From the NCBI RefSeq assembly GCF_013376105.1, contig NZ_JAAMFM010000031.1, forward strand, positions 1-50,587: DNA of 50,587 bases, given 5' to 3'. This DNA is from Arthrobacter wenxiniae (GTDB lineage Bacteria > Actinomycetota > Actinomycetes > Actinomycetales > Micrococcaceae). Positions 1,848 through 33,744 of this stretch are shown here, piece by piece. The notes under the pieces are model-generated. The model had not been told where the DNA came from. It did not search any database and worked only from the letters and a program-made list of their open reading frames with translations. The stretch's first letter is position 1, and the number at the start of each line of letters is the position of its first letter. The position numbers and the translations under genes are program-made.

Positions 1848-2981
1848 CTACTTTTGGCGCCTGTAGAACGGAAGTGCGACGACCTCGAAGGGCTCGGCCT
1901 TGCCGCGGAGGTCGACGTCGAGCAGGGTGCCCGGTTCGGCGTGGGCGACGTCGACGTAGGCCAGTGCGACCGGGTAGCCCAGGGTGGGGCTGGGCTGGCC
2001 GGAGGTGACTTCACCAATCACGACGCCGTCCTTCAGGACCGGGTAGTGGCCGCGCGCGGCCCGGCGGCCAACGCCCTTCAGGCCCACGAGCTTGCGCCCC
2101 GTGGTGGTGCCTTCGCCGGATTCCTTGATGGCGGCGAGGGCGGCCCTGCCCACGAAGTCGCTTTCCTTGGCCAGCGACACCACGGGTCCCAGTCCGGCGG
2201 CGTAGGGGTGGCCGTCCAGGGAGAGTTCGTTGCCGTACAGCGGCATGCCGGCCTCCAGGCGCAGCGAATCTCGGGCGGCAAGCCCGGCCGGAATCAGTCC
2301 ATGGGCTGTGCCGCTTGCCAGCAGCGCCTGCCAGAGGGCTGGCGCGTCGGCGTTGGGCAGGTAGATCTCGAAGCCGTCCTCGCCGGTGTAGCCGGTGCGT
2401 GCCAGCAGCAGTTCATGGACAGTGCCGCCGACGGTGATGCCTACCTCAACGGCAGCGTAGTACTTCAGCTCTTTCACCAGCGGGTGCTGCCCGGCCGGCA
2501 CGAGCGTCAGGAGAATGGCTTCCGCGTTGGGGCCCTGGACGGCGATCAGGGAAGTCTCGCCGGAGACGTCCTGGACCCGGACGTCAAAGCCGGCGGCGCG
2601 TTCGGCCAGAAGTGCTGCCACGGTGGCGGCGTTGCCGGCGTTGGGCACCACCAGGTATTTGTCGTCGCTGCGGCGGTAGGAGATGAGGTCGTCGATGATG
2701 CCGCCGTCGGCGTTGCAGATCAGCGAGTACTTGGCCTTGCCCACGGCCACGGCGGACAGTTTTCCGGCCAGGGCGTAGTCCAGGAACGCTGCGGCGTCGG
2801 GGCCGCTGACCCAGACCTCGCCCATGTGGGAGAGGTCGAAGAGGCCGGCGGCATTGCGGACGGCGTGGTGCTCGGCCAGTTCCGAGGAGTATTTCAGCGG
2901 CATCTGCCAGCCACCGAAGTCGGTGAAGGAGGCGCCGGCTTTTTGGTGTTCGCCGTAAAGGGCTGTGTGGTTCTCAGTCAT
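1848..2981 (-). CDS. gcvT: Aminomethyltransferase (glycine cleavage T protein)
   Basis: 377 aa, normal for the family. It transfers the methylene group from aminomethyl-lipoyl-GcvH to tetrahydrofolate and releases ammonia. Signatures include the N-terminal FDLSHMGEVWVSGPDA, GGIIDDLISYR (containing the conserved acidic pair of the T-protein active site) and RTGYTGEDGFEIY. An AAAGGA ribosome site precedes ATG 2981. The gene lies 18 nt after gcvP and 53 nt before gcvH. Confidence 0.97.
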   Translation of the reverse strand: MTENHTALYGEHQKAGASFTDFGGWQMPLKYSSELAEHHAVRNAAGLFDLSHMGEVWVSGPDAAAFLDYALAGKLSAVAVGKAKYSLICNADGGIIDDLISYRRSDDKYLVVPNAGNAATVAALLAERAAGFDVRVQDVSGETSLIAVQGPNAEAILLTLVPAGQHPLVKELKYYAAVEVGITVGGTVHELLLARTGYTGEDGFEIYLPNADAPALWQALLASGTAHGLIPAGLAARDSLRLEAGMPLYGNELSLDGHPYAAGLGPVVSLAKESDFVGRAALAAIKESGEGTTTGRKLVGLKGVGRRAARGHYPVLKDGVVIGEVTSGQPSPTLGYPVALAYVDVAHAEPGTLLDVDLRGKAEPFEVVALPFYRRQK

Positions 2982-2999
2982 GGGGATTCCTTTGCGGTG

Positions 3000-5882
3000 T
3001 CAGTTTTCGAAGTCTTCGATCGGGGGGCAGGAGCAGACCAGATTCCGGTCCCCCGCCGCCCCGTCAATGCGTCCCACGGGCGGGAAGTACTTGTCCTGGC
3101 GCAGACTGGCCACCGGGAAGACGGCCTGTTCGCGCGGGTAGCCGCGCTCCCAGCTGGAATCGACGACGACGGCGGCCGTGTGCGGCGCGTTCCGCAGCGG
3201 GCTGTCCGCCAGGGTGAAGTCGCCCGCGGCGACCTGGTCGATTTCGTGGCGGATGCTGACCATGGCCGTGATGAACCGGTTGATCTCGTCCAGGTCCTCG
3301 GACTCGGTGGGCTCCACCATGAGCGTGCCGGCCACCGGGAAGGACAGCGTGGGGGCGTGGAAGCCGTAGTCGATCAGGCGCTTGGCCACGTCCTCGGCGG
3401 TGACGCCGGTCTTGGCCGTCAGCTCGCGCAGGTCCAGGATGCACTCGTGGGCCACCAGGTCCCCGACGCCCGTGTACAGGACCGGGAAGTGCTCGTTGAG
3501 CTCGGAGGCGATGTAGTTCGCGGCCAGCAGCGCGGACTTCGTGGCCTCGGTCAGCCCCTGCCCGCCCATCAGCTTGACGTAGGCCCAGGAAATCGGCAGC
3601 ACGCCGGCGGAGCCAAAGCGTGAGGCGGAGATCGGCGCCCCGGTGGCCGGTTCCCCGGCCGTCTCGACCAGCGGCGCGTTCGCGTCGCCTGGCATGAAGG
3701 GGGCCAGGTGGGCCTTGGCCGCAACGGGGCCGACGCCGGGTCCGCCGCCGCCGTGCGGGATGCAAAACGTCTTGTGCAGGTTCAGGTGGGAGACGTCGCC
3801 GCCGAACTTGCCGGGCTGGGCGAGGCCCACCAGTGCGTTCAGGTTGGCGCCGTCAACGTAGACCTGTCCCCCGGCGGCGTGGACGGCGTCGCAGACCTCG
3901 CGAACGTCCGCATCGTAGACGCCGTGCGTGGACGGGTAGGTGATCATGATGGCCGCCAGCTGGTCCCTGTGGGTTTCAATCTTGGACTGCAGGTCCGCGC
4001 TGTCAATGGCACCGTCGGGGGCGGTGGCCACGACGACCACCTTCATGCCGGCCAGGACGGCGGAGGCGGCGTTGGTGCCATGCGCGGACTGTGGGATCAG
4101 GCAGATGGTGCGCTGGCCGTCGCCGCGGGAGCGGTGGTAGCCGCGGATGGCCAGGAGGCCTGCGAGCTCGCCCTGGGAACCGGCGTTGGGCTGGAGGGAG
4201 ACCTGGTCGTAGCCGGTGATCTCACAGAGGTCCGCTTCCAGGCCCGCGATGAGTTCGCGCCAGCCACTGGTCTGGGAATCCGGGGCAAAGGGGTGGATGG
4301 AGGCGAACCCGGGCCAGGACATCGCTTCCATCTCGGCGGTGGCGTTGAGCTTCATGGTGCAAGAGCCCAGCGGGATCATGGTCCGGTCCAACGCCAGGTC
4401 GCGGTCGCTGAGGCGGCGGATGTAGCGCAGGAGCTGCGTTTCGGAGCGGTGCGTGTTGAACACGGGGTGGGTCAGGAAGTCCGAGGTGCGCCCGGTGTCC
4501 GCGGCGAGGGCAAAGGTTGCCCCTGCTCCGTGCTCGGTGCCGTCGCCCGCCGGTGCGGCACCAAACACGGCGGCAACGCGGGCGGTGATGTCCGCCGTCG
4601 TGGTTTCATCAAAGGAGATGCCCACGTGGTCGGCGTCGATGGGGCGCAGGTTGATGCCGTCCCGTTCGGCCAGTGCCACGATGGCGCCGGCGCGTCCGGG
4701 AACGCGCACCGTGAGGGTGTCAAAGAAGGAGCCGTGGAGCACTTCGACGCCGGAGGCCGCCAGTCCCGCGGCGAGCGTGCGGGCGTGGCTGTGGATCGTT
4801 TCGGCGATCGCCTTCAGCCCCTCGGGGCCGTGGTAGACGGCGTACATGGAGGCGACGATGGCGAGCAGTGCCTGGGCGGTGCAGATGTTGGAGGTGGCCT
4901 TTTCGCGGCGGATGTGCTGCTCGCGGGTTTGCAGTGCCAGCCGGTAGGCGGGAAGGCCGGTGTTGTCGGCGGAGACGCCCACGATGCGGCCTGGGAGTGT
5001 GCGTTCCATCCCGTTGCGGACGGCCATGTAGGCGGCGTGCGGGCCGCCGAAGAACAGCGGTACGCCGAAGCGCTGGGCCGTGCCGACGGCGATGTCCGCG
5101 CCCTGCTCGCCGGGAGGTGTGATCAGCGTCAGTGCCAGCAGGTCCGCGGCCACCGTAACGAGGGCGCCGCGTTCCTTGGCCGCGGCAATGACCGGTGCGT
5201 GGTTGAAGACCCGGCCCGAAACGCCGGGCTGCTGCAGGACGACGCCGTTGATCGCGCCGTCCGGCAGGCCCAGGGACAGGTCCGCGATTTCCACCTCGAA
5301 GCCCAGGGCCTCGGCCCGGCCCAGGACGATGGCGATGGTCTGCGGCAGGAGGTCCGCATCGAGCACCGTTTTTCCGTCCGAGGCGCCCTTGGACTTGTTG
5401 GCCCTGCGCATGAGGAGGACGGCCTCGGCCACGGCCGTGGCTTCGTCGAGCAGCGAGGCGTTGGCGACGGGCAGTCCGGTAAGGTCGCTGACCATGGTTT
5501 GGAAGTTCAGCAACGCCTCGAGGCGGCCCTGGGAGATTTCCGGCTGGTACGGCGTGTAGGCGGTGTACCAGGCCGGTGCCTCCAGGATGTTGCGGCGGAT
5601 CACGGCAGGCGTCACGGTGTCGTAGTAGCCCTGCCCGATCAGCTGGACGGCCGTCTTGTTCCTCGCGGCAAGTGCGCGAAGTTCGGCCAGCACCTCCACT
5701 TCGCTGAGCGGCGCCTGCAGCACCAGCGGCGTCCCCTGGCGGATGGAGTCGGGGACTGCGGTGTCGACCAGGGAGTCGACGCTGTCGTAGCCGATGGCCT
5801 TGAGCATGGAGTCGATGTCGGCCTGCCGGCGGGCACCGATGTGCCGGTCGGCAAACACGGTTGGGTTGGATTGAATCGTCAT
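3000..5882 (-). CDS. gcvP: Glycine dehydrogenase (decarboxylating), P protein
   Basis: 960-aa single-chain P protein: PLP-dependent decarboxylation of glycine and transfer of the aminomethyl group to lipoyl-GcvH. The PLP lysine lies in [18 protein letters not shown] (K704 from this start). The two halves of the protein resemble the alpha/beta subunits of two-chain P proteins. I chose ATG 5882 ([14 protein letters not shown]) because GGAG sits just upstream and because longer in-frame reading runs back into the riboswitch. The first codons and ribosome site closely resemble those of cycA, which has a second copy of the same leader. Confidence 0.96.
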
Positions 5883-5930
5883 GAGGAACTCCAAGGTACG
5901 GCCGTCCCCGTTGGGGCCCGGCATGGGTTT

Positions 5931-6126
5931 GGGTTCCTCCCCGCTCTGTCTTGGACCTGAGAGATTCCGTAGGACTTGTCCGTCCACTTGCACCGTCGGT
6001 GAGCCGGGCTTTCGCCAAGCTGCTTTCCAGAGTTGCCTCGCCGTGGCGGTACGTGGGCCTGAGAGATTCCTGGGGAGGATTTGCTCCTACGGCGCCGCCA
6101 AAAAAGTTGGGAGGACTCTCCCGCCA
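5931..6126 (-). ncRNA. Tandem glycine riboswitch (gcvT leader), copy 1
   Basis: On the minus strand the leader carries the two-aptamer glycine riboswitch hallmarks: GGCGGGAGAG at the 5' side, CCGTAGGAGCAAATCCTCCC, GGAATCTCTCAGGCCC closing aptamer 1, CTCTGGAAAGCAG in the linker, CACCGACGGTGCAAG in aptamer 2, and GGAATCTCTCAGGTCC followed by AGACAGAGCGGGGAGG. A small CCCC-AAC-GGGG hairpin lies between the aptamers and the ribosome site and may belong to the expression platform. Glycine binding typically turns such operons on. It is closely similar to the copy at 7371-7575. Confidence 0.95.
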
Positions 6127-6167
6127 CGATTCGAAAGGCATATGAAGTTGTGGGTGATTCGCAGCAC

Positions 6168-7341: not shown

Positions 7342-7370
7342 GAAAGAAAAGAAGCATGTGCCCATGATCC

Positions 7371-7575
7371 GCGGCGGGAGAGTCCTGCCGGTACGTCCTG
7401 GCAGGCGCCGTAGGAGCAAACCCTCCCCGGGAATCTCTCAGGCCCACGTACCGCCGCGGCAAGGCAACTCTGGAAAGCAGCCGAAGGAAACCAGGCTCAC
7501 CGAAGGTGCAAGCGCACCCTTGTTCTCAAGGATGCGCGGAAACTCTCAGGTCCCAGACAGAGCGGGGAGGAACCC
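7371..7575 (+). ncRNA. Tandem glycine riboswitch, copy 2 (cycA leader)
   Basis: Same two-aptamer architecture as the gcvP leader: GGCGGGAGAG, CCGTAGGAGCAAACCCTCCC, GGAATCTCTCAGGCCC, CTCTGGAAAGCAG, CACCGAAGGTGCAAG, GGAAACTCTCAGGTCC and AGACAGAGCGGGGAGG. Aptamer 2 carries a longer variable arm here (about 7516-7538). The riboswitch ends about 40 nt before the cycA ribosome site, so glycine is predicted to control uptake as well as cleavage. Confidence 0.95.
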
Positions 7576-7616
7576 AATTAAGCGTGGCCGCGGCCACCTG
7601 AACGATGGAGTTCCCT

Positions 7617-9059
7617 GTGACGATTCACCGTCCCCAGTCAGTCCAAGATGCACCGCCCCGGCTTGAGCGCCAGCTGAGCAACCGGCACATCCAGCTGATC
7701 GCCATTGGCGGGGCCATCGGCACCGGCTTGTTCATGGGCTCCGGGAAGACCATCTCCGCTGCCGGGCCTTCGGTCATCTTTGTCTACATGATCATCGGCT
7801 TCATGCTGTTCTTCGTCATGCGCGCCATGGGCGAACTCCTGCTCAGCAACCTGCACTACAAGTCATTCAGCGACTTCGCCGCGGACCTTTTGGGCCCGTG
7901 GGCCGGTTTCTTCACGGGCTGGACCTACTGGTTCTGCTGGGTGATCACCGGCATCGCCGACGTCATTGCCATCGCCGGATATTCCCAAGAACTGTGGCCC
8001 GGACTTCCCTTGTGGATCCCCGGGCTGGTCACGATCGGCATCCTCCTGGTGCTGAACCTGACAACAGTCAAGGCCTTTGGCGAGACGGAATTCTGGTTTG
8101 CCCTGATCAAGATCGTGGCCATCGCCGCCTTGATCATCGTGGGCCTGTTCATGATCTTCGGCGGGTTCCGCTCCAACGCAGGCGCTGCGAGCTTCACCAA
8201 CCTCTGGAGCCACGGCGGCTTCTTCCCACACGAGTTCATGGGATTTGTGGCGGGTTTCCAGATTGCCGTGTTTGCCTTTGTGGGAATCGAGCTGGTGGGC
8301 ACCACGGCGGCCGAGGCGAAGGACCCGGAGAAAAACCTCCCCAAGGCCATCAACTCCATCCCGGTGCGCGTGCTCCTGTTCTACGTTGGCGCCCTGATCA
8401 TCCTGATGTCCGTGATCCCCTGGACGCAGTTTACCGCCGGCCACAGCCCGTTCATCGCCATGTTTTCCCTGGCCGGCCTGGGCGCCGCGGCCACTGTGGT
8501 TAACCTCGTCGTGCTGACCTCCGCCATGTCCTCGGCCAACTCGGGCATCTACTCCACCTCGCGCATGGTGTACGGCCTCGCCCAGGAGGGGGACGCCCCC
8601 AAGGTGTTTGGCCGGCTCTCCGGCCGCAAGGTTCCCAGCAACGCCCTGTTCCTCTCCTGCGTCCTGCTGCTCTCCGGCGTCGTGCTGATGTATGCCGGAC
8701 AGGACATTGGCAAGGCCTTTGAAATGGTGACCACGGTGTCCGCAGTGTGCTTTGTTTTCGTCTGGTCGATCATCCTGGCCAGCTACATCGCCTTCCGGCG
8801 CCGCCGGCCGGAGCTGCACAACGCATCCGCGTTCAAGATGCCCGGCGGCATTCCCATGGTGCTGGTGGTCTTTGCGTTCTTCGCCTTTGTCCTCTGGGCG
8901 CTGACCACCCAGACCGACACCCTGGAGGCCCTGCTGGTCACACCGATCTGGTTCATCGCCCTCGGCGTCGTGTGGCTCTTCCTGCGGCGCCGCCCGACCC
9001 ACGTGGCACGCTACGCGACGTTCCGCGGCGAGCTCAAGTCGGAACGCGGCGTGAACTAA
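7617..9059 (+). CDS. cycA: CycA-type D-serine/D-alanine/glycine permease
   Basis: 480 aa, APC-superfamily proton symporter of the inner membrane with about 12 hydrophobic segments. It carries the family N-terminal signature (LSNRHIQLIAIGGAIGTGLF), FVGIELVGTTAAEAKDPEK and LTSAMSSANSGIYSTSRM, which match CycA closely. I prefer GTG 7617 (MTIHRPQS) over ATG 7605 because GGAG lies 7 nt upstream and because gcvP has the same arrangement (GGAGTTCC, start, then ACGATTCA). The glycine riboswitch in front supports glycine as a physiological substrate. Confidence 0.93.
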   Translation: MTIHRPQSVQDAPPRLERQLSNRHIQLIAIGGAIGTGLFMGSGKTISAAGPSVIFVYMIIGFMLFFVMRAMGELLLSNLHYKSFSDFAADLLGPWAGFFTGWTYWFCWVITGIADVIAIAGYSQELWPGLPLWIPGLVTIGILLVLNLTTVKAFGETEFWFALIKIVAIAALIIVGLFMIFGGFRSNAGAASFTNLWSHGGFFPHEFMGFVAGFQIAVFAFVGIELVGTTAAEAKDPEKNLPKAINSIPVRVLLFYVGALIILMSVIPWTQFTAGHSPFIAMFSLAGLGAAATVVNLVVLTSAMSSANSGIYSTSRMVYGLAQEGDAPKVFGRLSGRKVPSNALFLSCVLLLSGVVLMYAGQDIGKAFEMVTTVSAVCFVFVWSIILASYIAFRRRRPELHNASAFKMPGGIPMVLVVFAFFAFVLWALTTQTDTLEALLVTPIWFIALGVVWLFLRRRPTHVARYATFRGELKSERGVN

Positions 9060-22669: not shown

Positions 22670-23950
22670 TCAGCGCAGGCCGCGACTGTGCGCCAGTGCA
22701 ACTGCCTCGGACCGGGAACCGACGGCAAGTTTTTTCAGCACATTCCGGACATGGAACTTGACGGTATTTTCACTAATGTTCAGTGCCATGGCAATCGAGC
22801 GGTTGCGCTCCCCGGCGGAGAGGTGCTCGAGCACCTTGATTTCGCGGGGGCTCAACTTCCATGCGGTAACGTTGCCACCTCGCAGCTCGGGCGGGTTCAA
22901 CGGCAGCGACACGGCGACGTCTGCCCCCCAGCCAGGGATCACATCCATTTGCATTGTGCCGGTGAGAGCCTGAACTTGGCGGTCCAGCCGCGCCATGCCT
23001 TGAGACTCCCGGGAGAGCGCCCCATGGCCGTCGTCACGGACGTTCACCAGCAGGTTTTCGCCGTCGCAATCCCACTGCGTGCGAATTCTGTGGACGTCCG
23101 GCTGGTCCATCATCGCCAGGACCAGTCCCCGAACAATGGCACGCGCCGCGTGGGCAACCTCCCCGGGAAGCGCCCTGCCGTTCCGAGGGGGTTCGACGAA
23201 CTGGACATCGATGCCGCTGAAGCGTGTCAGCGGGCGCAGGTCATCCCGCAACCTCTCGAAGGCCCTGCCAACCGGCTCCTCCACGAGGTCAGTGGTGCGG
23301 TCGTTGAGGGTGCGGAGCCCGATGAGGGACTTGGCGGTCAGGTCCGTGACCGACGAACGTGCCTCCTTGTCATTGAGGGAGGTTGAACGCACGGCAGCCA
23401 GAATTGTCTCCAGTACCGTGGAGTACTGGTCAACGAGTTCTGCAGTGACGCGGACACGCTCTGCCGACGCGGCCCGCGATTCCAGCAGGTACGACGGCGG
23501 TGCGTCAGCGACCTTCTCCTGGATCCGCCGGGCCGTGAGGCCCCATAGGTAGCCCACCATCCCCAATGCTTCATCAGGCATCAATTCAGCGGCAGGATCA
23601 GGGTCGGTCAACACCAGCAGCGCTTGGCTGGGCGTGTACTTCATGGCGAGGACATGGCGGGGCCGACCCGCTATCTCCGCTTCCCCCAGCCACGGGGCTT
23701 CATCCGCAAGGGTGGCACGGAGCTTGTCGAGTTCGGCAATGGAGGTGCGGGAGATGATCGCCTCCGATCCCGCCTTCTTGTGCGGGCGGCCAGTACAGTC
23801 CTCGGTGAAGATGAGCAGTGCGCTGCTTGCCACATACGGGGCCGTGGCATCGCGCAGGCGCTCGGCGATGCTCGTCAAGGGAGCCGCAGCCAATGCTGCA
23901 ATGGAATCCAGCAGCGTACCGGTCCTGCCGAAAAATGGCGTAGCGGCCAA
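22670..23950 (-). CDS. LuxR-type regulator with histidine-kinase-like ATPase domain
   Basis: About 426 aa from TTG 23950. The N-terminal ~150 residues resemble a sensory (GAF-like) domain, the middle contains a helical region and an HATPase_c-like domain (NVRDDGHGAL, then GWGADVAVSLPL), and the C-terminus is a LuxR/FixJ helix-turn-helix (LSPREIKVLEHLSAGERNRSIAMALNISENTVKFHVRNVL). I see no obvious phospho-acceptor His box, so this looks like a one-protein sensor-regulator. The upstream ATG at 24037 overlaps a perfect TATAAT and has no ribosome site, whereas TTG 23950 has AGAGGGGG upstream. It diverges from hxlB and probably controls the formaldehyde-fixing genes. Confidence 0.85.
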   Translation of the reverse strand: MAATPFFGRTGTLLDSIAALAAAPLTSIAERLRDATAPYVASSALLIFTEDCTGRPHKKAGSEAIISRTSIAELDKLRATLADEAPWLGEAEIAGRPRHVLAMKYTPSQALLVLTDPDPAAELMPDEALGMVGYLWGLTARRIQEKVADAPPSYLLESRAASAERVRVTAELVDQYSTVLETILAAVRSTSLNDKEARSSVTDLTAKSLIGLRTLNDRTTDLVEEPVGRAFERLRDDLRPLTRFSGIDVQFVEPPRNGRALPGEVAHAARAIVRGLVLAMMDQPDVHRIRTQWDCDGENLLVNVRDDGHGALSRESQGMARLDRQVQALTGTMQMDVIPGWGADVAVSLPLNPPELRGGNVTAWKLSPREIKVLEHLSAGERNRSIAMALNISENTVKFHVRNVLKKLAVGSRSEAVALAHSRGLR

Positions 23951-24033
23951 GGTCGAACCCCCTCTGTCGGTGAAATGGTCGCCGCGGACAATCGCGGAGC
24001 ATCCTCGTTCCCTACCCGAAAGAGTAGTGAAAA

Positions 24034-24043
24034 CCATTATAAG
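24034..24043. promoter_or_regulatory. TATAAT box in the divergent regulator/hxlB region
   Basis: TATAAT on the minus strand at 24036-24041, within CCATTATAAG, which also reads TATAAG on the plus strand. The -35 regions are poor in both directions, so an activator may be needed. It sits about 100 nt before hxlB and about 86 nt before the proposed regulator start. Confidence 0.35.
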
Positions 24044-24144: not shown

Positions 24145-24741
24145 GTGAGTTCCACTGCTGCGCCAGCGCCTCCCGACATCACGAGACACGTCGTGAGAGA
24201 AAATCTCTCACTCGTACAGGACGAAATTGCTGTTGCCGTAGCTGGACTGGATGATCGACAACTGACCGTTCTGGCCGCCGAACTCCAGTCAGCCCGCCGG
24301 GTCTTTGTGGCCGGTGCCGGGCGGAGCGGATTGGTGCTGCGGATGGCAGCCATGCGCCTGATGCATTTGGGGCTGACTGTCCACGTGGCCGGTGACGCCA
24401 CGACGCCCGCGATCTGCTCCGGCGACCTGCTCCTCGTGGCCTCCGGATCAGGAACGACGTCGGGAGTCGTCAAGTCCGCGGAGACGGCAGCAGGGGCAGG
24501 TGCCCACATCGCGGCGCTCACCACGAGCGCCTCCTCCCCTCTGGCCGTCCTCGCGGACGCGCTGGTCATTATCCCCGCCGCACAAAAAACCGACCACGGA
24601 TCCGGCGTTTCGCGCCAATACTCCGGGTCACTTTTCGAGCAAGCACTTTTTCTTGCCACTGAGTCCGTCTTCCAGACCTTGTGGGAAGACGCCGGGCAAC
24701 CCGCCGAACAACTCTGGCTCAGGCACGCAAACCTGGAATAG
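24145..24741 (+). CDS. hxlB: 6-phospho-3-hexuloisomerase (SIS domain)
   Basis: 198 aa. Second enzyme of the ribulose monophosphate route, converting hexulose-6-phosphate to fructose-6-phosphate. SIS-domain signatures are VFVAGAGRSGLVLRMAAMRLMHLG and DLLLVASGSGTT, and the C-terminal GSLFEQALFL is typical of PHI. GTG 24145 has AAAGG upstream. It precedes hxlA by 46 nt. Together the pair fixes formaldehyde, either for growth or detoxification. Confidence 0.93.
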   Translation: MSSTAAPAPPDITRHVVRENLSLVQDEIAVAVAGLDDRQLTVLAAELQSARRVFVAGAGRSGLVLRMAAMRLMHLGLTVHVAGDATTPAICSGDLLLVASGSGTTSGVVKSAETAAGAGAHIAALTTSASSPLAVLADALVIIPAAQKTDHGSGVSRQYSGSLFEQALFLATESVFQTLWEDAGQPAEQLWLRHANLE

Positions 24742-24787
24742 CCCGTGACCTGGACCCCCGCAGTTTCCTACAGAAAGTGAACTAAAC

Positions 24788-25411
24788 ATGAAGCTCCAAG
24801 TAGCCATGGACCTGCTGACCATCGACGACGCCCTCGAACTGGCCGGAAAGGTCGCCGAATACGTCGACATTATCGAACTCGGCACCCCCTTGATTAAGGC
24901 CGCCGGCCTCGCCGCCGTTACCGCCATTAAGGACGCCCACCCGGACAAGATCATCTTCGCTGACATGAAAACCATGGATGCCGGAGAGCTCGAAGCCGAC
25001 ATTGCGTTCAAGGCAGGCGCCGACCTCGTCTCAGTCCTGGGAAGCGCGGACGACACCACGATCGCCGGCGCCGTCAAGGCCGCCAAGAGTCACAACAAGG
25101 GCATCGTGGTTGACCTCATCGGCGTTGTGGATAAAGTCTCGCGGGCCAGGCAGGCACATGCCTTGGGCGCCCAATTCATCGAGTTCCACGCCGGACTTGA
25201 TGAACAGGCACAACCCGGTTTCGACTTGAAAGGCCTCCTCAGCGCAGGAAGGAACGCCCTCGTTCCGTTTTCCGTCGCCGGCGGCGTCAACCTCAGCACG
25301 ATTGAGGCGGTCCAGCTGGCCGGCGCTGATGTAGCCGTGGCTGGCGGCGCGATCTACGGCGCGGCCGATCCCGCCCTGGCGGCAAAGAAACTTCGGGTAG
25401 CCATCGTCTAG
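24788..25411 (+). CDS. hxlA: 3-hexulose-6-phosphate synthase
   Basis: 207 aa, OMP-decarboxylase-like TIM barrel. It condenses formaldehyde with ribulose-5-phosphate. Motifs: VAMDLL at the N-terminus, IIELGTPLI, the catalytic DMKTMDAG and the phosphate-binding VAGGVN and VAVAGGAIYGA. ATG 24788 has AGAAAG upstream. It forms a two-gene unit with hxlB, and the remnant of zwf follows on the same strand. Confidence 0.96.
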   Translation: MKLQVAMDLLTIDDALELAGKVAEYVDIIELGTPLIKAAGLAAVTAIKDAHPDKIIFADMKTMDAGELEADIAFKAGADLVSVLGSADDTTIAGAVKAAKSHNKGIVVDLIGVVDKVSRARQAHALGAQFIEFHAGLDEQAQPGFDLKGLLSAGRNALVPFSVAGGVNLSTIEAVQLAGADVAVAGGAIYGAADPALAAKKLRVAIV

Positions 25412-25543
25412 TCTTGCGAATTTCCGGTATCACGGCTGTCCCCTGCAGCGAAAAGGCGGGCCACCGCCACACGCCCCTTCCGAGGCCCTGATGGTGTGCG
25501 CGGCACCCCGAACGGGTGATTTTCAAGCAGTTCGTGAGCATCA

Positions 25544-26268
25544 ATGACTGACAAGCAAACTCTTTCGCGCAGAAAAGGCGGAGCCAACCCGCTTCGGGAC
25601 AGCCGCGACCGCCGGCTGTCCCGGGTGGCGGGCCCGTCGTCGCTGGTGCTCTTCGGGGGCACCGGGGACCTGTCCCGCAAGAAGCTCATGCCAGCCGTGT
25701 ACGACCTGGCCCAGGGCGGGCCGGACTGCTGGCGCCGGGTGGTCATTGAGAAGCCGTTCGGGCACAACCTGGCCTCGGCTAGGGCGCTGAACGACATTGT
25801 CGAATCGGTGTTCCCGCCCGATGCCATGTTCCGGATCGACCATTACCTGGGCAAGGAAACCGTCTGGAACATCCTGGCCCTGCGCTTCGCCAACCAGTTC
25901 TTCGAGCCCCTCTGGAACGCGAACTATGTGGACCATGTGCAGATCACCATGGCCGAGGAGAAGTCCGGCTGGACATCAACACCCGGCGCTGGTCGGGGGT
26001 GCCGTTCTACCTGCGGGCCGGCAAGCGCCTGGGCCGGCGCGTGACGGAGATCGCGGTGGTCTTCAAGCGCGCCCCGAACCTGTTGTTCACCGACCACGCC
26101 GAGGACGACTTCGGGCAGAACGCCGTGGTGATCCGGGTCCAGCCCGACGAGGGCGTCACGATCCGCTTTGGCTCCAAGGCCCCCGGGACGCAGATGGAGG
26201 TCCGCGACGTCACGATGGACTTTGGCTACGGGCACGCCTTCACCGAATCCAGCCCGGAAGCCTACGAG
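25544..26268 (+). pseudogene. zwf: Glucose-6-phosphate dehydrogenase remnant with internal deletions
   Basis: Recognisable blocks of Zwf are joined with large pieces missing. [42 protein letters not shown] (cofactor-binding N-terminus, with GGTGDLS) jumps straight to [13 protein letters not shown], losing roughly 90-100 residues. [11 protein letters not shown]...[25 protein letters not shown] then jumps, with a frameshift near 25970, to [20 protein letters not shown], losing roughly 110-120 residues. The block ending in GHAFTESSPEAYE (26268) is cut again. A working enzyme has about 510 residues; this cannot be active. It probably once supplied the oxidative branch of the RuMP cycle beside hxlAB. 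Confidence 0.85.
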
Positions 26269-26556
26269 CCCGGCAGCAGGGGGCCCAGGCTGCACCGCGC
26301 CATGGGCGCGCCCACCACCATGACGGAGGACCCCCGGGGCACCGGCATCCGCCGCGTAATCCTGGAACGTGAGGGGGGCAACGTCGAACTCCACCGCCCC
26401 GGCGCCATCGAGGCCGAAATGAGCCAGCCCGGCCAGCCCGTGCAGCAGATATCCCTTCCGCGGCGCACCCTGCAGGACTGCCTCGCCGAGGAACTGCGCC
26501 GGCTCGACCCCGACGAAGTCTTCGGCGAAGGTTGTCCAGCACCGGTAGACCGCTGA
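26269..26556 (+). pseudogene. opcA: OpcA C-terminal remnant fused to the zwf relic
   Basis: Right after the truncated Zwf sequence the same frame continues with GTGIRRVILEREGGNVELHRPG, SQPGQPVQQISLPRRTLQDCLAEELRRLDPDEVFGE, which is the C-terminus of OpcA, the G6PDH assembly protein that normally follows zwf in actinobacteria. The end of Zwf and most of OpcA are missing, so one further deletion spans the gene boundary. Confidence 0.75.
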
Positions 26557-26656
26557 CGAGCAACGGATTGGTTCGTCCCGGGCATGTCCCCCGTGCGCGC
26601 CCCTCGGGCAGGCGTCCAAGTCCCCCTGTTGCCGATCGTTCCTGGCGCCAGGGACG

Positions 26657-27622
26657 TCAGAGGTCCAATACGAGACGCCTGCCCTTGCAGCGGGAAACAC
26701 AGATCATCATGGTGTCCATCGCGGCTCGCTCGCCCTCGGAGAGAAGGCTGTCGCGGTGGTCGACCTCCCCGGCCAGCACGCCTGTCTCGCAGGTGCCACA
26801 AATCCCTTCCTGGCATGAGCTGAGCACGCGCACGCCGGCGCTCCCAAGGGCCGCCAGGATGGTGGTCCCCACCGGCACGTCGATCTCCTGTCCGTCGTTG
26901 AGTTCCACGACGAACTCGTGATCGCCCGCAGCGGGAGCGGTGGCGGCGCCGGCATCGGCAGGGTCGCCGACGAAACGCTCATAGTGGAAGCGCGACTGGT
27001 CAACCCACGGATTAATGTACCGCTGAATCGCTTTCAGCAGGGGTCCGGGACCACAGGTGTAGAGGTGGAAGCCGGCCTCGGGCTGCTCCAGCACCTCCGC
27101 CAAGGCATAGCGTCCACTTTCGTCGTCGGCGTGCACTTCAACTTTGTCTCCGTAAACCCCAAGTTCGTCCAGGAAGGCCATGCTCTGGCGGCTGCGTCCC
27201 AGGTACACCAACCGCCAGGGGACACCACTGCGGTCCGCCTGGCGAACCATCGGGAGAATCGGCGTGATGCCAATGCCGCCAGCGATGAATAGGTACTCCG
27301 GGGCGGGTCCGAGGGCAAAGTTGTTCCTTGGCCCTCGAACCTGGACCTTCGTGCCCGGCAGCAACTCATTGTGGACAAAGTCGGAACCTCCTCGTCCGGA
27401 CACCTCATGCAGGACGGCGAGCCGCCACTGCGGCTCACCCGGTTCCGAGCACAGCGAATACTGGCGCACCAATCCGTTGGGCAACAGCACGTCGACATGG
27501 GCGCCGGGCTGCCATTCGGGCAGTGGTGAATCAAGTGGGTGCTCGAGCACGAGGGAAACCACGCAGTCTGATTCATGCTTGATGGTCGTGACGGTGACGT
27601 CGGAGAACTCGGTGATTTTCAT
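26657..27622 (-). CDS. Ferredoxin/NAD(P)H oxidoreductase of a Rieske oxygenase system (VanB-like)
   Basis: 321 aa from ATG 27622; GTG 27637 is an alternative. Domain order is FMN/FAD-binding barrel with RQYSLCSEP, NAD-binding domain with GGIGITPI and a C-terminal plant-type [2Fe-2S] domain with CQEGICGTCETG and a final Cys in MMICVSRC. This order is that of phthalate dioxygenase reductase and VanB. It passes electrons from NAD(P)H to a Rieske oxygenase, here surely the one at 31872-32924. It is the last gene of the operon, separated from the oxygenase by the transporter genes. Confidence 0.93.
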   Translation of the reverse strand: MKITEFSDVTVTTIKHESDCVVSLVLEHPLDSPLPEWQPGAHVDVLLPNGLVRQYSLCSEPGEPQWRLAVLHEVSGRGGSDFVHNELLPGTKVQVRGPRNNFALGPAPEYLFIAGGIGITPILPMVRQADRSGVPWRLVYLGRSRQSMAFLDELGVYGDKVEVHADDESGRYALAEVLEQPEAGFHLYTCGPGPLLKAIQRYINPWVDQSRFHYERFVGDPADAGAATAPAAGDHEFVVELNDGQEIDVPVGTTILAALGSAGVRVLSSCQEGICGTCETGVLAGEVDHRDSLLSEGERAAMDTMMICVSRCKGRRLVLDL

Positions 27623-27646
27623 GGTTCTGACTTTCACTTGCCGGGT

Positions 27647-28438
27647 TTAGCGCACGGAGGAGAGGAATGCCTTGGTCCGCTCGTGCTGGGGGTTGGTGAT
27701 CACGTACCGTGCCGGACCCTGTTCAACGATTCGTCCATCGGCCATGAAGACCACTCGATCCGCCACGTCGCGGGCAAAGTTCATCTCGTGGGTGACGACG
27801 ACCATGGTCATTCCCGAAAGTGCCAGGTCCTTCATGACCTTTAAGACGTCCCCCACCAGTTCCGGGTCAAGGGCCGAGGTGGGCTCGTCGAAAAGCATCA
27901 ATTTTGGTTGCATGCACAGGGCGCGGGCTATCGCAACGCGCTGCTGCTGCCCCCCGGAGAGTTGACGCGGGAAGGCCCCCGCCTTTTCTGCCAGCCCCAC
28001 CTTTTCAAGCAGTTCCAGTGCGCGCTGGACCACAACGGACTTTTTTTCCCCGAGCACCAGGCGGGGCGCCTCCACCAGGTTCTCCAGCACCGTCATGTGC
28101 GGAAACAGATTGAAGTGCTGGAAGACCATGCCGATGCCGGTGCGGCTCCGGCATATCCGGCTTTCCTTCTGCTCGTGCAGCCGTGTTCCCTTGATGTCAT
28201 AGCCCATCGCCTTCCCATCCACCCACATGCGCCCGCCGTCGATGCCTTCGAGGTGGTTGATGCAGCGCAGGAAGGTGCTCTTGCCAGATCCGGAGGGACC
28301 GATGAGGCAGACAACCTCGCCGGCGTCGACCTCCAGGTCCAGGCCGTCAAGGACGTTGAGCTTTCCGTAGTTCTTCACGATCCCGTCGGCCCGCACCATG
28401 GGTGCAGCCCGGACCGTCGTATTTTCCGCGGCCGTCAT
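27647..28438 (-). CDS. Polar amino-acid ABC transporter ATP-binding protein
   Basis: 263 aa with Walker [10 protein letters not shown]-loop [16 protein letters not shown], signature LSGGQQQR, Walker [13 protein letters not shown] and the switch His in VVTHEM. This is the GlnQ/HisP group. ATG 28438 overlaps the permease stop as ATGA; the longer reading upstream runs inside the permease gene and is rejected. It energises uptake together with the two preceding genes. Confidence 0.95.
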
Positions 28439-29388
28439 AATTTTCCGCCTTTCCGGGCCAGCCGGTCGTGGGTGTTGAAAAACAACGTTAGTTTTTGCAG
28501 CGGCGTAAGCGGCAGGTTCCGTTGGCCGCCCTTGGCGAAGCGCCGTTCCAGGTAATACTGGCCAATGCTGAGGATCGACGTCACGACGATGTACCAAATG
28601 CTCGCGACCATCAGCAGGGGGATGGTCTGGAAGTTCCTGGCGTAGATGATCTGTGAAGAATAGAGGAGCTCCGGAACGGAAATGACACTGACAAGGGCCG
28701 TCGTCTTGAGCATTCCGATCGTTTCGTTTCCGGTGGGCGGAATGATCACCCGCATCGCCTGGGGCAGGACAATCCGGCGCATGGTCTGCAGCTTGTTGAT
28801 GCCCAACGCTCCCGCTGCCTCGACCTGGCCGTGGTCAACAGAGAGTATCCCTGCCCGCACAATTTCGGACATGTAGGCCCCTTGATTCAAGCCCAGGCCC
28901 AGAATTGCGGCAAACATTGGCGTGATGATCGCGTTTGCGTCCAGGGCAACGCCGGGGATCCCAAAGCTAACCGTCGGGTACAGTGCAGCGAGGTTGTACC
29001 AAAACAGCAGTTGCACCAGGACAGGGGTGCCACGGAAAAAGTTCACGTAAGCGAACGCGGCCGTGCGCACCACGGGGTTGGGTGAGAGGCGCAGCACCGC
29101 CACCACCACACCAAGTACGATTCCAATGGCCATGCACACAGCGGTCAGCTCAAGCGTCACCGCGATGCCTTGAACGATGCTCACTTCCCGCAGGTACAGG
29201 CCCACGGTTTCCCAGCCAAACCGCGGGTTCGTGGCCACGGAGCGCGCCATCAAAACCGCGAAGACCGCAATGATGGCAGCGGAAACCCACCGGCCGGGAT
29301 GTTTCGCCTTGACTACCGTGTAGTGGTCCCTGGTCCGGCCGGGCGATGTAAAAGTTGTTTTCTCAGGTGTCTTGGTCAGGTCTGTCAC
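28435..29388 (-). CDS. Polar amino-acid ABC transporter permease
   Basis: 317 aa, HisM/GlnP type, with about five to six membrane segments and the cytoplasmic coupling motif [22 protein letters not shown]. The cytosolic N-terminus is somewhat long (about 35 residues before the first helix). GTG 29388 begins 6 nt after the binding-protein stop. Only one permease gene is present, so the transporter is probably a homodimer. Confidence 0.94.
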
Positions 29389-29394
29389 GGCGGC

Positions 29395-30321
29395 CTACTT
29401 TTGCACAATCTTGTTGGCGCTGATCGTGGCGGCGGCGGGAATGCCCCACTTGGCGTTGATTTCAGCGAACGCCGGGCTTTCGACGACGAGCCTGGTGGCT
29501 TCCTGAATCGCCGGGAGCAGTTCGGAACCCTTGTTCAGGGCCGTTCCGGTCGGCAGGGGGTCAAAGTCGGCACCAGCTCCCAGCTCAAATCGGCCGTCGG
29601 CAAGCTTGCCTTGGTAGGCCAGGGAAACACTGTCTGCAAGAACCCCGCTCACGCGTCCCGAGGTCAGGGCCAGGTTTGCGTCGGTCTGGGTCGGGAAGTT
29701 TTGTGCTTCGAGCGCTGGCTTGCCGGCGTCGGTACACTTTTTGGACAGCTGCGGAATCAAGTCCATGCTCTGGATCGATCCCTTCTGTGCCGCCACTTTC
29801 TGCCCGCACAGGGTCAAACCTTCGATGGCCAGTTTGAGAGGATTTTTCGGTGCAACCGCCAGCCCCGTGCCGTTGTCCAGGTAGGGAACGAAGTCCACTG
29901 CCTTGGCGCGCTCCGGCGTGACGGAAAATGCCGACATGCCCAGGTCATACTTGTGTGACGTCAGCCCGGGCAGGATGGTGTCAAACGTGGCAGGCACATG
30001 ATCGGCCTTCAGGCCGAGCACGGCCGCGATGGCGTTGCCCATGTCCACGTCCCAACCGATCATGGTCTTGTTGTCCGTGTCGAAATACTCGAATGGCGGG
30101 TACGTCGGATCCGAGGCGATCTTCAGCACGCCAGCCTCACGGATGGTGGTCGGCAGGAGTGCCCGCGCCTTGTCATTGACAGTCAGCGTCGCGGCGACTG
30201 GCGACGCCAGCTCCGCCTGTCCGCCGGCTTGCGGGGAGGCCGGCACAGTGGTGCAGCCTGCCGCAACAATCGTGAGCGTCAATACTCCCGCTGTCAGGAG
30301 CGATTTTCGGAACGTGTGCAT
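29395..30321 (-). CDS. Amino-acid ABC transporter substrate-binding lipoprotein
   Basis: 308 aa. ATG 30321 follows GAAAGG. Signal peptide with lipobox VAAGC (C23), then a family 3 solute-binding fold: LKIASDPTYPPFEYFD, GWDVDMGNAIAAVLG, FDTILPGLTSHKYDLGMSAFSVTPERA and a C-terminal INAKWGI. The ligand is unknown, but the conserved PPFEY and TPERA segments are typical of polar amino-acid receptors. It lies 49 nt after the deacylase gene. Confidence 0.93.
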   Translation of the reverse strand: MHTFRKSLLTAGVLTLTIVAAGCTTVPASPQAGGQAELASPVAATLTVNDKARALLPTTIREAGVLKIASDPTYPPFEYFDTDNKTMIGWDVDMGNAIAAVLGLKADHVPATFDTILPGLTSHKYDLGMSAFSVTPERAKAVDFVPYLDNGTGLAVAPKNPLKLAIEGLTLCGQKVAAQKGSIQSMDLIPQLSKKCTDAGKPALEAQNFPTQTDANLALTSGRVSGVLADSVSLAYQGKLADGRFELGAGADFDPLPTGTALNKGSELLPAIQEATRLVVESPAFAEINAKWGIPAAATISANKIVQK

Positions 30322-30370
30322 GAACTTACCTTTCGTGGGGGTCTCGACGTCGCTGTCGGACCCGGGCTGA

Positions 30371-31423
30371 CTACAGGCTCTTGCTGGGTACTTCCGGTGC
30401 AATGTGCACCAGGTGCGTGCCCACGGTGACCAGCGATGGATGCCGCAGGATGGCCACCACCCCGTCCACCCGGGCACGATATTCGACTGGTTCACGATCC
30501 AGTTCGTCGATAAAATGTACGCGCGCCACCACATCTCCGGCCGAGACGTGGTCGCCCAAGTCCACCAGGGGTTCCAGGATCCCTGCCGTCTTCGAGGTGA
30601 CAGCCGCTTCGGGCACGAGTTCGATCCACACGGGTTCGTGCGCGGCTGCGCGCAGGGGGACACCCGTGGACGCTTCCTGCAGCACGCCGACGTGCTGCAG
30701 GAAGGCGGGCAGGCCTGCCCGGATTAACTCCAGCGCACCCCGATCCACCGTGCCCCTGCCGGAGAGTTCGGTGGACAGCGAGAGAATCCCCGCGTCGTCA
30801 CCGGCGCAGCTCAGCGAGCCGGGCTCGAGCCGTGCGGGGACCACCATGACATAAGGCAGGCCCAACAGCCTGGCGGCGTGCACCCTTTGCTCCCACAGTG
30901 CCGGGTCCGGCCCGCGATACAGGAAAGTGCATGGCAGATAGCTCGAATTCGTACCGCCGGAGTGCAGGTCCACCACGGCATCGGCAAGGGGGAGCAGCGC
31001 GCCCGCGACGAGATTGGCCGTCTGGGCGGTGGGGCCGCCCGCGGCACTGCCGGGGTAGCTGCGGTTGAGGTTGCCGCCGTCGATCGGGGAAACCCGCGTT
31101 CCCGCCCGGACGGCAGCTGAGTTCGCCGCGGGCACGACGATCAACGTTCCGCTGAGCTGCCCCGGCAGGGTGTTGCGGATGAGCTCATGGAGCAACACCT
31201 GTCCTTCATACTCGTCACCGTGGGTACCGGCCACCAGCAGCACCGTCGGCCCGGGCCCCGAACTGATGACTGCGACGGGGACCGGAATCACCGCACCGTC
31301 ATGCACGTTATCGGAATGCACCACATGCCCGTAGCCAAGATGCTTGCCGGGCTCACCGAAATCGATTCCGGTGAACCGGGCACCGCTCGTGGGTGCCCGG
31401 ACGCCTGCTGCCGAAGGGCTCAC
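30371..31423 (-). CDS. Succinylglutamate desuccinylase/aspartoacylase family deacylase
   Basis: 350 aa zinc deacylase (M14-like). Zinc and catalytic features visible are GTHGDEYEGQ (His and Glu ligands), NLNRSYPG and DLHSGG (third ligand His). The C-terminal beta-domain (VDLGDHVSAGDVVARVHF) is as in AstE/DoeB-like proteins. I chose GTG 31423 because it overlaps the preceding stop as GTGA; earlier starts lie inside the upstream gene. In this operon it probably removes an acyl group from the imported amino-acid-like substrate, or opens an amide after demethylation. The substrate is unknown. Confidence 0.88.
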   Translation of the reverse strand: MSPSAAGVRAPTSGARFTGIDFGEPGKHLGYGHVVHSDNVHDGAVIPVPVAVISSGPGPTVLLVAGTHGDEYEGQVLLHELIRNTLPGQLSGTLIVVPAANSAAVRAGTRVSPIDGGNLNRSYPGSAAGGPTAQTANLVAGALLPLADAVVDLHSGGTNSSYLPCTFLYRGPDPALWEQRVHAARLLGLPYVMVVPARLEPGSLSCAGDDAGILSLSTELSGRGTVDRGALELIRAGLPAFLQHVGVLQEASTGVPLRAAAHEPVWIELVPEAAVTSKTAGILEPLVDLGDHVSAGDVVARVHFIDELDREPVEYRARVDGVVAILRHPSLVTVGTHLVHIAPEVPSKSL

Positions 31424-31863
31424 GGCACCCACCGCAAGGCATTTGCGCGCTTGGGGGCCATGGACACGACCGAAACCTTGGAAGGTGGCGCCGCCAGGCT
31501 CAGTCGGAGCGACTCCTCTTCCTCGCCTTCCACAATGAAGACGTCCCCGGGCTTGAGCCAGCGTTCCCACGGGCCGTTTTCCGCTGACACTAGTGCCTCG
31601 CCGGCAAGCCCGGCGACAATGAGCTGGTGACCGGCCGGACGGTGCAGCAGCCCGGTGTGGCCATCGGCATACTCGGTGACGTCGAGTTCTATGAAATCAC
31701 GGTCCACTGAGACGCTGACCCCCGACTGGGTTTCATCGAGGCTGACCGTCCAGCGCCACGGGTCCCCACGCTCTGCCGTGTCCGGGCACGCCGCGAGGGT
31801 CCTGGCGTTTCGGTCCGGTTGCATGTCGCCTCCCAGGGCGTTGGCCCTGATCAACATCCACAT
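31420..31863 (-). CDS. HutD/Ves-like cupin protein
   Basis: 147 aa. It begins MWMLIRANALGG, continues with PWRWTVSLDETQSGVSVSVDRDF and has a cupin-like core (HRPAGHQLIVAGLAGEALV, LKPGDVFIVEGEEEESLRL). The start and layout resemble HutD/Ves proteins, which accompany histidine-utilisation genes, but the match is from memory and partial. It begins 8 nt after the Rieske gene and its stop overlaps the deacylase start. The role is not known; a sensor or housekeeping role for the pathway is possible. Confidence 0.55.
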   Translation of the reverse strand: MWMLIRANALGGDMQPDRNARTLAACPDTAERGDPWRWTVSLDETQSGVSVSVDRDFIELDVTEYADGHTGLLHRPAGHQLIVAGLAGEALVSAENGPWERWLKPGDVFIVEGEEEESLRLSLAAPPSKVSVVSMAPKRANALRWVP

Positions 31864-31871
31864 GCGGGCCC

Positions 31872-32924
31872 CTACGCCGACCGCGGAGCAGCGGGCTCCA
31901 CGGTCCGGTTGGCCGGGGACGCGTTTTGTTCCTTCTTCAACAATGCCGCCAGGATGCGTCGGGCCTTGGCCACTCCCCCGTCCTGGGCGATCAGAACATC
32001 GAATTCGCCGGCAGGCCGGTCCTGCATGCCGATCTCCTGGGCTTCCAGGGCCGCGGCGTCCTCATCCAGGACGGTGGCCAGCCCCACGAGCAGCTCCTGC
32101 GTGGCCTGGGCGTTGTCAACGCCAAAGTTCCGGCTGAAGGCGTAGTAGTACCAGGAATTGTGCTCGTCGATAGGCGTGATGCCGTTGAGGACCTTGATCA
32201 GGTACCCCTCCTCGCGCGGGCGGCCTTCACCGCTGATGCCTGAATGCAGCACATGGAGGTTCGGGACAAAGAACTCGGTGCAATGGAAGCGGTCAAAGAG
32301 GCCCCGGGCATCCATGGTCTCCGCATACAGCGGGGGGGCCTCCACCGAGGGCATCAGGCGGTCGACGCTGACCACATTGCCCTCCACCTCAACCGTGATG
32401 CCGTGCTCATAGATATAATCGTCGCCCACAGTCGTCTTGTGGAGGAACGACTCATGCGTCAGGTCCAGCAAATTGTCATGGATCAAATCTGTCCGGCACT
32501 TGAAGTGGACGGAGTGCGTCACGGTCGCCCATTCCGGATCGACCATCCAATGCGTGTCAGGCACATCCGCCGGATCGGCAAGCTCCGCGTCGCCCGTCCA
32601 AACCCAGATCCACCCGTCCTTCTCGACCAACGGGTACTTCCGCACGCGGGCCCGCTCCGGAATGGTCGTCTGGGCAGGGACCTTGGTGCACATCCCATCA
32701 GGACCGGACGTAAAACCGTGGTAACCACACTCCACGGAGTCCCCCACAGTCCGTCCCTCCGAAAGCGGGAATGCGCGATGGGCACAACGGTCGGCCAAGG
32801 CGACCGCCGCGCCGTCCTGGGTCCTAAAGAGGGCGATTGGCTGCTTACAAACCACCCGTCGAACGGGTTTGCGGGTCACTTCGGCGGACCAGGCGGCAAC
32901 GTACCACGTGTTCAAGACAAACAT
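31872..32924 (-). CDS. Rieske non-heme iron oxygenase (VanA-like demethylase family)
   Basis: 350 aa. Rieske centre: C47-A-H49 and C66-GY-H69. Mononuclear iron site: D154-LT-H157-x4-H162 in NLLDLTHESFLH. Length and layout match the VanA/TsaM/dicamba demethylase group, which splits O- or N-methyl groups to give formaldehyde, more than ring-hydroxylating dioxygenase alpha subunits. AAGGAGG lies 7 nt upstream of ATG 32924. It is first in a seven-gene operon and faces the GntR regulator. Demethylation is an inference from the family and the adjacent formaldehyde-fixing genes. Confidence 0.9.
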   Translation of the reverse strand: MFVLNTWYVAAWSAEVTRKPVRRVVCKQPIALFRTQDGAAVALADRCAHRAFPLSEGRTVGDSVECGYHGFTSGPDGMCTKVPAQTTIPERARVRKYPLVEKDGWIWVWTGDAELADPADVPDTHWMVDPEWATVTHSVHFKCRTDLIHDNLLDLTHESFLHKTTVGDDYIYEHGITVEVEGNVVSVDRLMPSVEAPPLYAETMDARGLFDRFHCTEFFVPNLHVLHSGISGEGRPREEGYLIKVLNGITPIDEHNSWYYYAFSRNFGVDNAQATQELLVGLATVLDEDAAALEAQEIGMQDRPAGEFDVLIAQDGGVAKARRILAALLKKEQNASPANRTVEPAAPRSA

Positions 32925-32945
32925 CTTTCAAGCCTCCTTGCTTGG

Positions 32946-32971
32946 GTGTATACACCGTATACGACGAATAC
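32946..32971. promoter_or_regulatory. Triple GTATAC operator between Rieske operon and GntR gene
   Basis: GTATAC (32948-32953), GTATAC (32957-32962) and GAATAC (32966-32971) repeat with an exact 9-bp period. The first sits in the perfect palindrome GGTGTATACACC (32945-32956) and the second in CGTATACG. GntR/FCD regulators commonly bind GT-N(2-3)-AC palindromes, so the adjacent regulator is the obvious partner. The array begins about 20 nt upstream of the Rieske start. Confidence 0.65.
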
Positions 32972-33075
32972 AAAGAGAGTCAATGGTCATTGTGAGGCTG
33001 TTTCCGTGGGGCGGGTGAAGCATCGGCATGGGGTATTAGACTCAAACCACCATCCAGCAGCGACGGAGATTTTGA

Positions 33076-33744
33076 ATGGATTCACATCACAGCGTGATCA
33101 AGAAGCATGATCCACGCCCCCTGGCCATTCAGGTGCACGAGCGCATCAGCTCCGACATCATCGACGGAAATTTCCCGCCCGGCTCCTCGCTGGTGCAGGA
33201 GCAGGTGGCCGCCCTGTACGGCGTCTCCCGCACGCCCGTCAGGGACGCCCTCACGCAGGTCGCGCAGGAGGGCCTGGCCACCCTCGTTCCCGGCCAGGGG
33301 TACGTGGTCAATGACCTCACGGACAAGGACGTCCGCGACGTCTACGAGGTGCGCTACACACTGGAGGCCCTCGCCGCCCGGCAAGCCTGCGGCAAGCACT
33401 CACCCGCCCAACTGATACGCCTGCGGGCAATGATCGACGAGTTCGAAACCTTGGATCCGTCAGATGCACAGGCCTTGTTCCTGATGGGCAGCCAATTTCA
33501 CGCGGCCCTGATTGAACCGTGCCCGAATGACTACCTGCGTTCCACTTTGGCCGCCATGTGGGCCCACCCCATCCAGCGCCGGATCACCATGACATACCGG
33601 CAGGGCCCCCACCACCAGGCCAAGCTCGCCGATGACCACCGGCGCATCCTCGAGGCACTTAAAACGAACGACCCCGAGACCATCGTGGAGGTCCTTCGCT
33701 ACTGCCACGATCCGGCCGACGAACGGTCTGGACCGGGCGCCTGA
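33076..33744 (+). CDS. GntR-family regulator, FadR/FCD subgroup
   Basis: 222 aa. Winged helix at about 15-80 (IQVHERISSDIIDGNFPPGSSLVQEQVAALYGVSRTPVRDALTQVAQEGL, read in parts) and a helical FCD effector domain with the metal-ligand pattern D/H...H (EFETL, FHAALIE, DDHRRILEAL). Members usually repress catabolic operons and are released by a carboxylated metabolite. It diverges from the Rieske operon across the GTATAC array and is very likely its repressor, binding the pathway substrate or an intermediate. Confidence 0.92.
   Translation: MDSHHSVIKKHDPRPLAIQVHERISSDIIDGNFPPGSSLVQEQVAALYGVSRTPVRDALTQVAQEGLATLVPGQGYVVNDLTDKDVRDVYEVRYTLEALAARQACGKHSPAQLIRLRAMIDEFETLDPSDAQALFLMGSQFHAALIEPCPNDYLRSTLAAMWAHPIQRRITMTYRQGPHHQAKLADDHRRILEALKTNDPETIVEVLRYCHDPADERSGPGA

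Follow-up and report, generated by a model that had tools for sequence, protein, structure and literature searches.

Which compound is consumed by a seven-gene operon of Arthrobacter wenxiniae, and does the hxlAB gene pair beside it belong to the same system? The operon lies on the minus strand of a 50,587-nt stretch of DNA (the window; 66% G+C), which belongs to contig C25 in a genome of 4.33 Mb, here labeled G000. It encodes, in order, a Rieske oxygenase, a HutD-like cupin, an AspA/AstE-family hydrolase, a solute-binding protein (SBP), a permease, an ATPase and a reductase, and a GntR/FCD regulator gene diverges from it (Table 1). The original prediction envisaged that an amino-acid-like compound is imported, deacylated and oxidatively demethylated, with coupling to formaldehyde fixation by hxlAB, and named a methylhistidine derivative as a speculative option. 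The sequence of steps from import to demethylation fits our data, but the coupling to hxlAB lacks support in this genome. The imidazole option is now the best supported, by linkage to hut genes, the HutD fold, and a sister transporter and reductase that adjoin a hutH-like gene. On balance, the sequence evidence favors a role of the operon in the catabolism of histidine derivatives that are N-methylated and commonly also N-acylated.

All of the predicted genes were found in the order and orientation proposed, and both claimed 4-nt overlaps were confirmed, at the HutD-like/deacylase and permease/ATPase junctions; the remaining gaps are 6 to 48 nt, and the importer has a single permease gene. A scan of genome contigs with the Rieske protein returned 41 loci, of which 35 (L021-L055) were counted; six distant ones (L056-L061, 30-36% identity) were left out of all counts, and L065-L070, which stem from the same genomes as named loci, were not counted again. 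The Rieske orthologues of the 35 loci are 68-92% identical to the window protein, and the named hosts are mostly Arthrobacter, Pseudarthrobacter, Paenarthrobacter, Paeniglutamicibacter, Glutamicibacter, Brevibacterium and Streptomyces. Within 9 kb of the Rieske gene we found the HutD-like gene in 32 loci, the GntR, SBP and reductase genes in 30 each, the permease and ATPase genes in 28 each, a full deacylase gene in 20 and hxlA in 1, with some absences due to contig ends (L037, L041). With conservation in 35 further actinobacterial genomes, the operon is no chance array. In Brevibacterium (L048, L050), the deacylase-transport genes stand apart as a unit of their own, and in Streptomyces the HutD-like gene is placed between the ATPase and reductase genes. 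Rieske matches at E ≤ 1e-90 were present in 7 of 394 genomes of an even class sample, G000 among them, and in 1 of 396 genomes of a phylum sample, G000 itself; the system is therefore sporadic. A plasmid search with the Rieske protein gave 588 records, all below 60% identity, the top-ranked of the best 20 of these being 41.8% identical.

The proposed link to histidine comes in part from gene neighborhoods. Genes of hut lie within 9 kb of the operon in L023, L051 and L052 and at 24-30 kb in L032, L034, L035 and L038; among such relatives, the Rieske gene overlaps hutG and the operon abuts hut. Although hutH scored over its cut-off in G000 and in 33 of the 35 operon genomes, its presence was set aside as evidence because the gene is common in relatives regardless. 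The second line of evidence is the cupin. The window protein had no match in Pfam or NCBIfam profile searches, and Pfam HutD (PF05962) was matched weakly by 4 of 26 aligned members (best E 8e-4); however, the top three structural matches of the predicted cupin fold were all HutD, consistent with a HutD fold. The earlier "HutD/Ves-like" label is borne out by this fold and by those four members, although the window protein itself lacks a profile match. The fold is common to this protein and HutD (PA5104; P. fluorescens SBW25) at 11-14% identity over 121-129 residues, but in 32 of the 35 loci the cupin described here, unlike HutD, is encoded next to a Rieske oxygenase, which provides HutD with a second genomic context. 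The structure of HutD is solved, and its role is, to our knowledge, unsettled. The near-constant position beside the oxygenase, including a 55% Rieske paralogue in L062 and L063, suggests that the HutD-like protein has more than a general hut role. The paralogue units (L062:8400-11201, L063:9811-11321) have their own HutD-like partner and a related ATP-binding cassette (ABC) importer, and the unit of L062 is preceded by an aminotransferase that resembles HisC (263.3 bits against a cut-off of 276.55).

The importer and reductase point in the same direction. When seven genomes were searched, the closest non-operon relative of the permease adjoined a second hutH-like gene in five, and that of the reductase adjoined a cytochrome P450 and a hutH-like gene in four; these genomes were hand-picked, six of the seven for their second hutH-like gene. 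The SBP is 32-46% identical to the copies retrieved with the window SBP as query, and the ATPase scored 321.2 bits against NCBIfam EhuA, below the cut-off of 345.4. In L085-L088, the P450 gene near the second hutH-like gene is accompanied by a related ABC importer (except in L088) and a VanB-like reductase, which for the L086 genome was found by the reductase search and is absent from the table of open reading frames. This sister system possibly uses the P450 to demethylate a related histidine derivative. Two other loci, L084 and L089, contain a second, divergent hut cluster with hutU2, hutI2 and hutF; in L084, the frames also include hutH2, and the locus encodes an AllC-like protein, a true HutD (121 bits) and a relative of the HisC-like aminotransferase of L086.

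The Rieske protein possesses the CxH...CxxH cluster motif, an N/D/H/H/D mononuclear iron site, a VanA_C catalytic domain and a DdmC-like fold. Residues C47, H49, C66, H69, N151, D154, H157, H162 and D289 were invariant in an alignment of 28 Rieske sequences; by analogy to DdmC, we take the first four to hold the cluster and the other five to form the iron site. The nearest solved structures were aromatic O-demethylases, DdmC and a guaiacol O-demethylase. Compared to DdmC/VanAB, however, the protein is only 31% identical, and the aromatic-acid context of those enzymes is replaced here by amino-acid import, HutD and hut, with the HutD-like cupin as partner. The caffeine N-demethylases NdmA/NdmB are 22-23% identical to it, and we know of no histidine-pathway genes in those systems.

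The hydrolase belongs to the AspA/AstE Zn-hydrolase family (AstE_AspA_cat, 123.7 bits, cut-off 25). Its nearest named family was NCBIfam DoeB, at 217.8 bits versus a cut-off of 402.7, well short of that threshold, and its structural matches include the DoeB structures 6twl/6twm (E about 5e-50). The resemblance to the ectoine DoeB/EhuABC system extends to the ATPase and permease, which are among the best scorers of the EhuA/EhuC models, but all of these matches fall under curated cut-offs and no ectoine-pathway gene was recognized in the operon. Ectoine catabolism was rejected because the DoeB and Ehu models scored below cut-off.

A clue to the cap that this enzyme would remove is a class-III aminotransferase gene, which in seven of the 35 genomes (L024, L028, L030, L033, L036, L037, L054) lies no more than 13 kb from the Rieske gene; the L036 and L028 copies exceed the PRK06062 cut-off. 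Four of these loci (L024, L030, L036, L037) also encode a relative of CoA-acylating methylmalonate-semialdehyde dehydrogenase (MMSDH), the sides and order of the pair varying among loci, and the linkage in L033, L036 and L037 may have one common origin. The breakdown of β-alanine requires an aminotransferase and a dehydrogenase of this type, making anserine or balenine a candidate substrate. Our best guess is that the cap is β-alanyl, i.e., that of anserine or balenine, with N-acetyl-methylhistidine as the main alternative. One article names anserine as a product made from β-alanine (PMC7057948). Among loci lacking the deacylase, no such aminotransferase was detected in the L026 and L027 genomes by a search at E ≤ 1e-130, nor in that of L051, and one is present elsewhere in the L052, L023 and L029 genomes. 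M20 hydrolase genes occur at L022, L025 and L029. Separately, L032, L033, L034 and L038 carry, next to gntR, HyuA/HyuB-type hydantoinase-like genes along with genes for an NCS1-like permease and a PucR-like regulator; the L032 HyuA is nearest to caprolactamase alpha, under cut-off, and the HyuB, NCS1-like and PucR-like names were given by eye.

From this arrangement we infer the substrate, the order of steps, the chemistry and the role of the regulator. Judged by their families, the SBP, permease and ATPase would import a methylated histidine compound and the AspA/AstE-type hydrolase would remove its N-terminal cap. The Rieske oxygenase, receiving electrons from the VanB-like reductase, would then hydroxylate the N-methyl group, which would leave as formaldehyde, and the HutD-like cupin may be an accessory or ligand-binding partner. 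Freed histidine would enter a hut pathway encoded elsewhere, as the linkage in relatives suggests. The most complete version of this scheme, a full pathway for anserine or balenine of animal origin with a new anserinase family, the first methylhistidine N-demethylase, its regular HutD-like partner, β-alanine passing to the aminotransferase and MMSDH, histidine passing to hut, and the P450 sister system turning over a related methylated histidine, is possible but doubtful as a whole.

Expression of the operon probably involves the GntR/FCD protein acting at a GTATAC palindrome upstream of the Rieske gene. A palindromic, GTATAC-centred site, with the best form CACTGTATACRGTG, was present in 32 of 33 distinct gntR-rieske gaps, the exception being L041; L063 and L071 have no such gap. 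When 25 whole genomes were scanned with the CACTGTATACRGTG pattern allowing one mismatch, the gap was matched in 20 and there were six other matches overall, whereas a backward control pattern gave 11 matches. The gaps of G000, G882 and G885 carry other operator variants, outside the scan pattern, and G910 and G911 are without such a gap. In 637 kb from the 35 loci, the extended motif occurred outside the gntR-rieske gaps only at the deacylase-transport units of L048 and L050 and at hxlB of L026.

Several observations weigh against the favored reading of an N-methylated, commonly capped histidine derivative. Tight hut linkage is confined to three of the 35 genomes, a near-identical pair among them; the presence of hutH is uninformative (the gene occurs in 44 of 58 relatives, and within the genus itself in 23 of 23), and the hutH of the window genome is on another contig, unlinked to the operon. 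In the loci scanned, the operator was not found at any hut or aminotransferase gene. A full deacylase is missing from 15 of 35 loci (in L041 the contig ends first, and L045 has a short piece of 63.5 bits); given this and a variable SBP, different hosts may use different substrates. PRK06062-type aminotransferases are without proven β-alanine activity, and L054 has the aminotransferase nearby yet no deacylase at the locus. Lastly, an N-methyltryptophan-oxidase-like gene in three Streptomyces loci hints at an N-alpha-methyl group. This gene is the starting point for a quite unlikely alternative, namely that the operon degrades a histidine methylated at its alpha-nitrogen, such as hercynine (histidine betaine) or N-alpha-dimethylhistidine, with the Rieske enzyme removing the first methyl(s) and the sarcosine/N-methyltryptophan-oxidase-like flavoenzyme of Streptomyces taking the last one. 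The N-methyl-L-tryptophan-oxidase-like gene is directly downstream of the reductase gene in L042 (16796-17962), L045 and L046, the L042 flavoenzyme reaches 255.8 bits (cut-off 257), and the hut and HutD evidence applies equally here. Nevertheless, the flavoenzyme is restricted to those 3 of 35 loci, the oxygenase is of the VanA/DdmC type and matched carnitine monooxygenase at the level of noise (E about 0.4), and a trimethylated alpha-nitrogen is unable to bear the cap implied by the deacylase of 20 loci.

It also seems unlikely that the operon acts on some other amino-acid-like compound with methyl and acyl groups, for example an O-methyl aromatic amino acid, and that the hut and HutD links are incidental. 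Such a substrate would suit the aromatic O-demethylases that are the closest solved enzymes, and it agrees with the rarity of tight hut linkage and the commonness of hutH among relatives; in contrast, separate lines meet on histidine, including the Rieske-hutG overlap, the operon abutting hut, the HutD fold, and the best transporter and reductase relatives adjoining a hutH-like gene.

Beyond the 3' end of the operon, the plus strand carries hxlB, hxlA and then a zwf/opcA remnant that had escaped the original prediction and from which large parts of both genes are gone. Two longer frames, related to this remnant and presumably zwf- and opcA-like, occupy the same place in L026. The end of hxlA is 1.2 kb from the last operon gene, and this proximity, together with the double operator copy preceding hxlB in L026 (Pseudarthrobacter HLT1-5), would fit hxlAB being a formaldehyde sink dedicated to the operon. 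In the window genome, we nonetheless consider such a role improbable. No operator copy was found upstream of the window hxlB, and a weak resemblance to the operator in TGGATACA at 24078 was dismissed, as the ATGGATA element upstream of this gene also precedes hxlB in 5 of 14 other hxl loci (L091, L094, L096, L098, L103). A LuxR relative is upstream of hxlB in 8 of the 14 hxl loci of other genomes, these being short stretches of which some may be cut off, and the zwf/opcA genes behind the window pair are broken. Nor does hxlAB travel with the operon: hxlA was over cut-off in 19 of 147 relatives, comprising 2 of the 10 that bear the operon (Rieske identity 70% or higher) and 17 of the remaining 137, and just one of the 35 other loci has it close to the operon. 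The two operon-bearing genomes are G000 and G071, and the G071 copy is on a separate contig. Given the lack of an operator, the promoter features and LuxR neighbor shared with unlinked hxl loci, and the lack of co-occurrence, hxlAB looks like an independent neighbor in the window genome, where neither shared regulation nor co-occurrence makes this ribulose monophosphate module part of the system; the predicted coupling is therefore unsupported here and was set aside. The module adjoins the operon in both the window and L026, but only in L026 is the operator at hxlB. Coupling thus exists elsewhere, and the L026 operator supports the release of formaldehyde by the oxygenase.

Table 1. Positions of the operon and neighboring features in the window; the starts of the reductase, SBP, deacylase and ATPase genes are our choice inside longer open frames.
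Feature	Position	Strand	Basis
GntR/FCD regulator	33076..33744	+	Pfam GntR and FCD over cut-off
Putative double operator, upstream of Rieske gene	32944..32966		two GTATAC-centred sites, 9 bp apart
Rieske non-heme iron oxygenase, VanA/DdmC type (Rieske/VanA_C), putative N-demethylase of histidine derivative	31872..32924	-	
HutD-like cupin	31420..31863	-	
AspA/AstE-family hydrolase, proposed N-acyl or beta-alanyl cap removal	30371..31423	-	Pfam AstE_AspA_cat
Solute-binding protein, family 3	29395..30322	-	Pfam SBP_bac_3
ABC permease, polar amino acid type	28435..29388	-	Pfam BPD_transp_1, HEQRo_perm_3TM
ABC ATPase	27647..28438	-	Pfam ABC_tran
Reductase, FAD/NAD and plant-type 2Fe-2S, VanB-like	26657..27622	-	Pfam Fer2, NAD_binding_1
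Broken zwf/opcA remnant	25544..26556	+	G6PD_N, G6PD_C, OpcA C-terminal domain pieces, two frames
hxlA, 3-hexulose-6-phosphate synthase, neighbor module	24788..25411	+	TIGR03128 over cut-off
hxlB, 6-phospho-3-hexuloisomerase, neighbor module	24145..24741	+	TIGR03127 over cut-off
LuxR-type regulator, divergent from hxlB	22670..24037	-	Pfam GerE

Every component of the operon is from a known family. Among the matches listed from the open-licence literature, as far as their excerpts extend, we found neither a bacterial methylhistidine demethylation or anserine operon nor a combination in which a Rieske oxygenase and its HutD-like partner feed hut. Methylhistidines and anserine are plentiful in animal tissue and are established indicators of muscle breakdown and of meat intake. 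The operon offers candidate enzymes, a binding protein, a putative operator and cultured hosts, such as Arthrobacter sp. C2 and Paeniglutamicibacter gangotriensis, for probing how bacteria remove these methyl groups.

Elsewhere in the window, a glycine riboswitch (6037-6133, minus strand) lies upstream of glycine-cleavage and glyA genes (98-5993), and a tandem glycine riboswitch pair (7365-7570, plus strand) lies upstream of an amino-acid permease gene (7605-9059).

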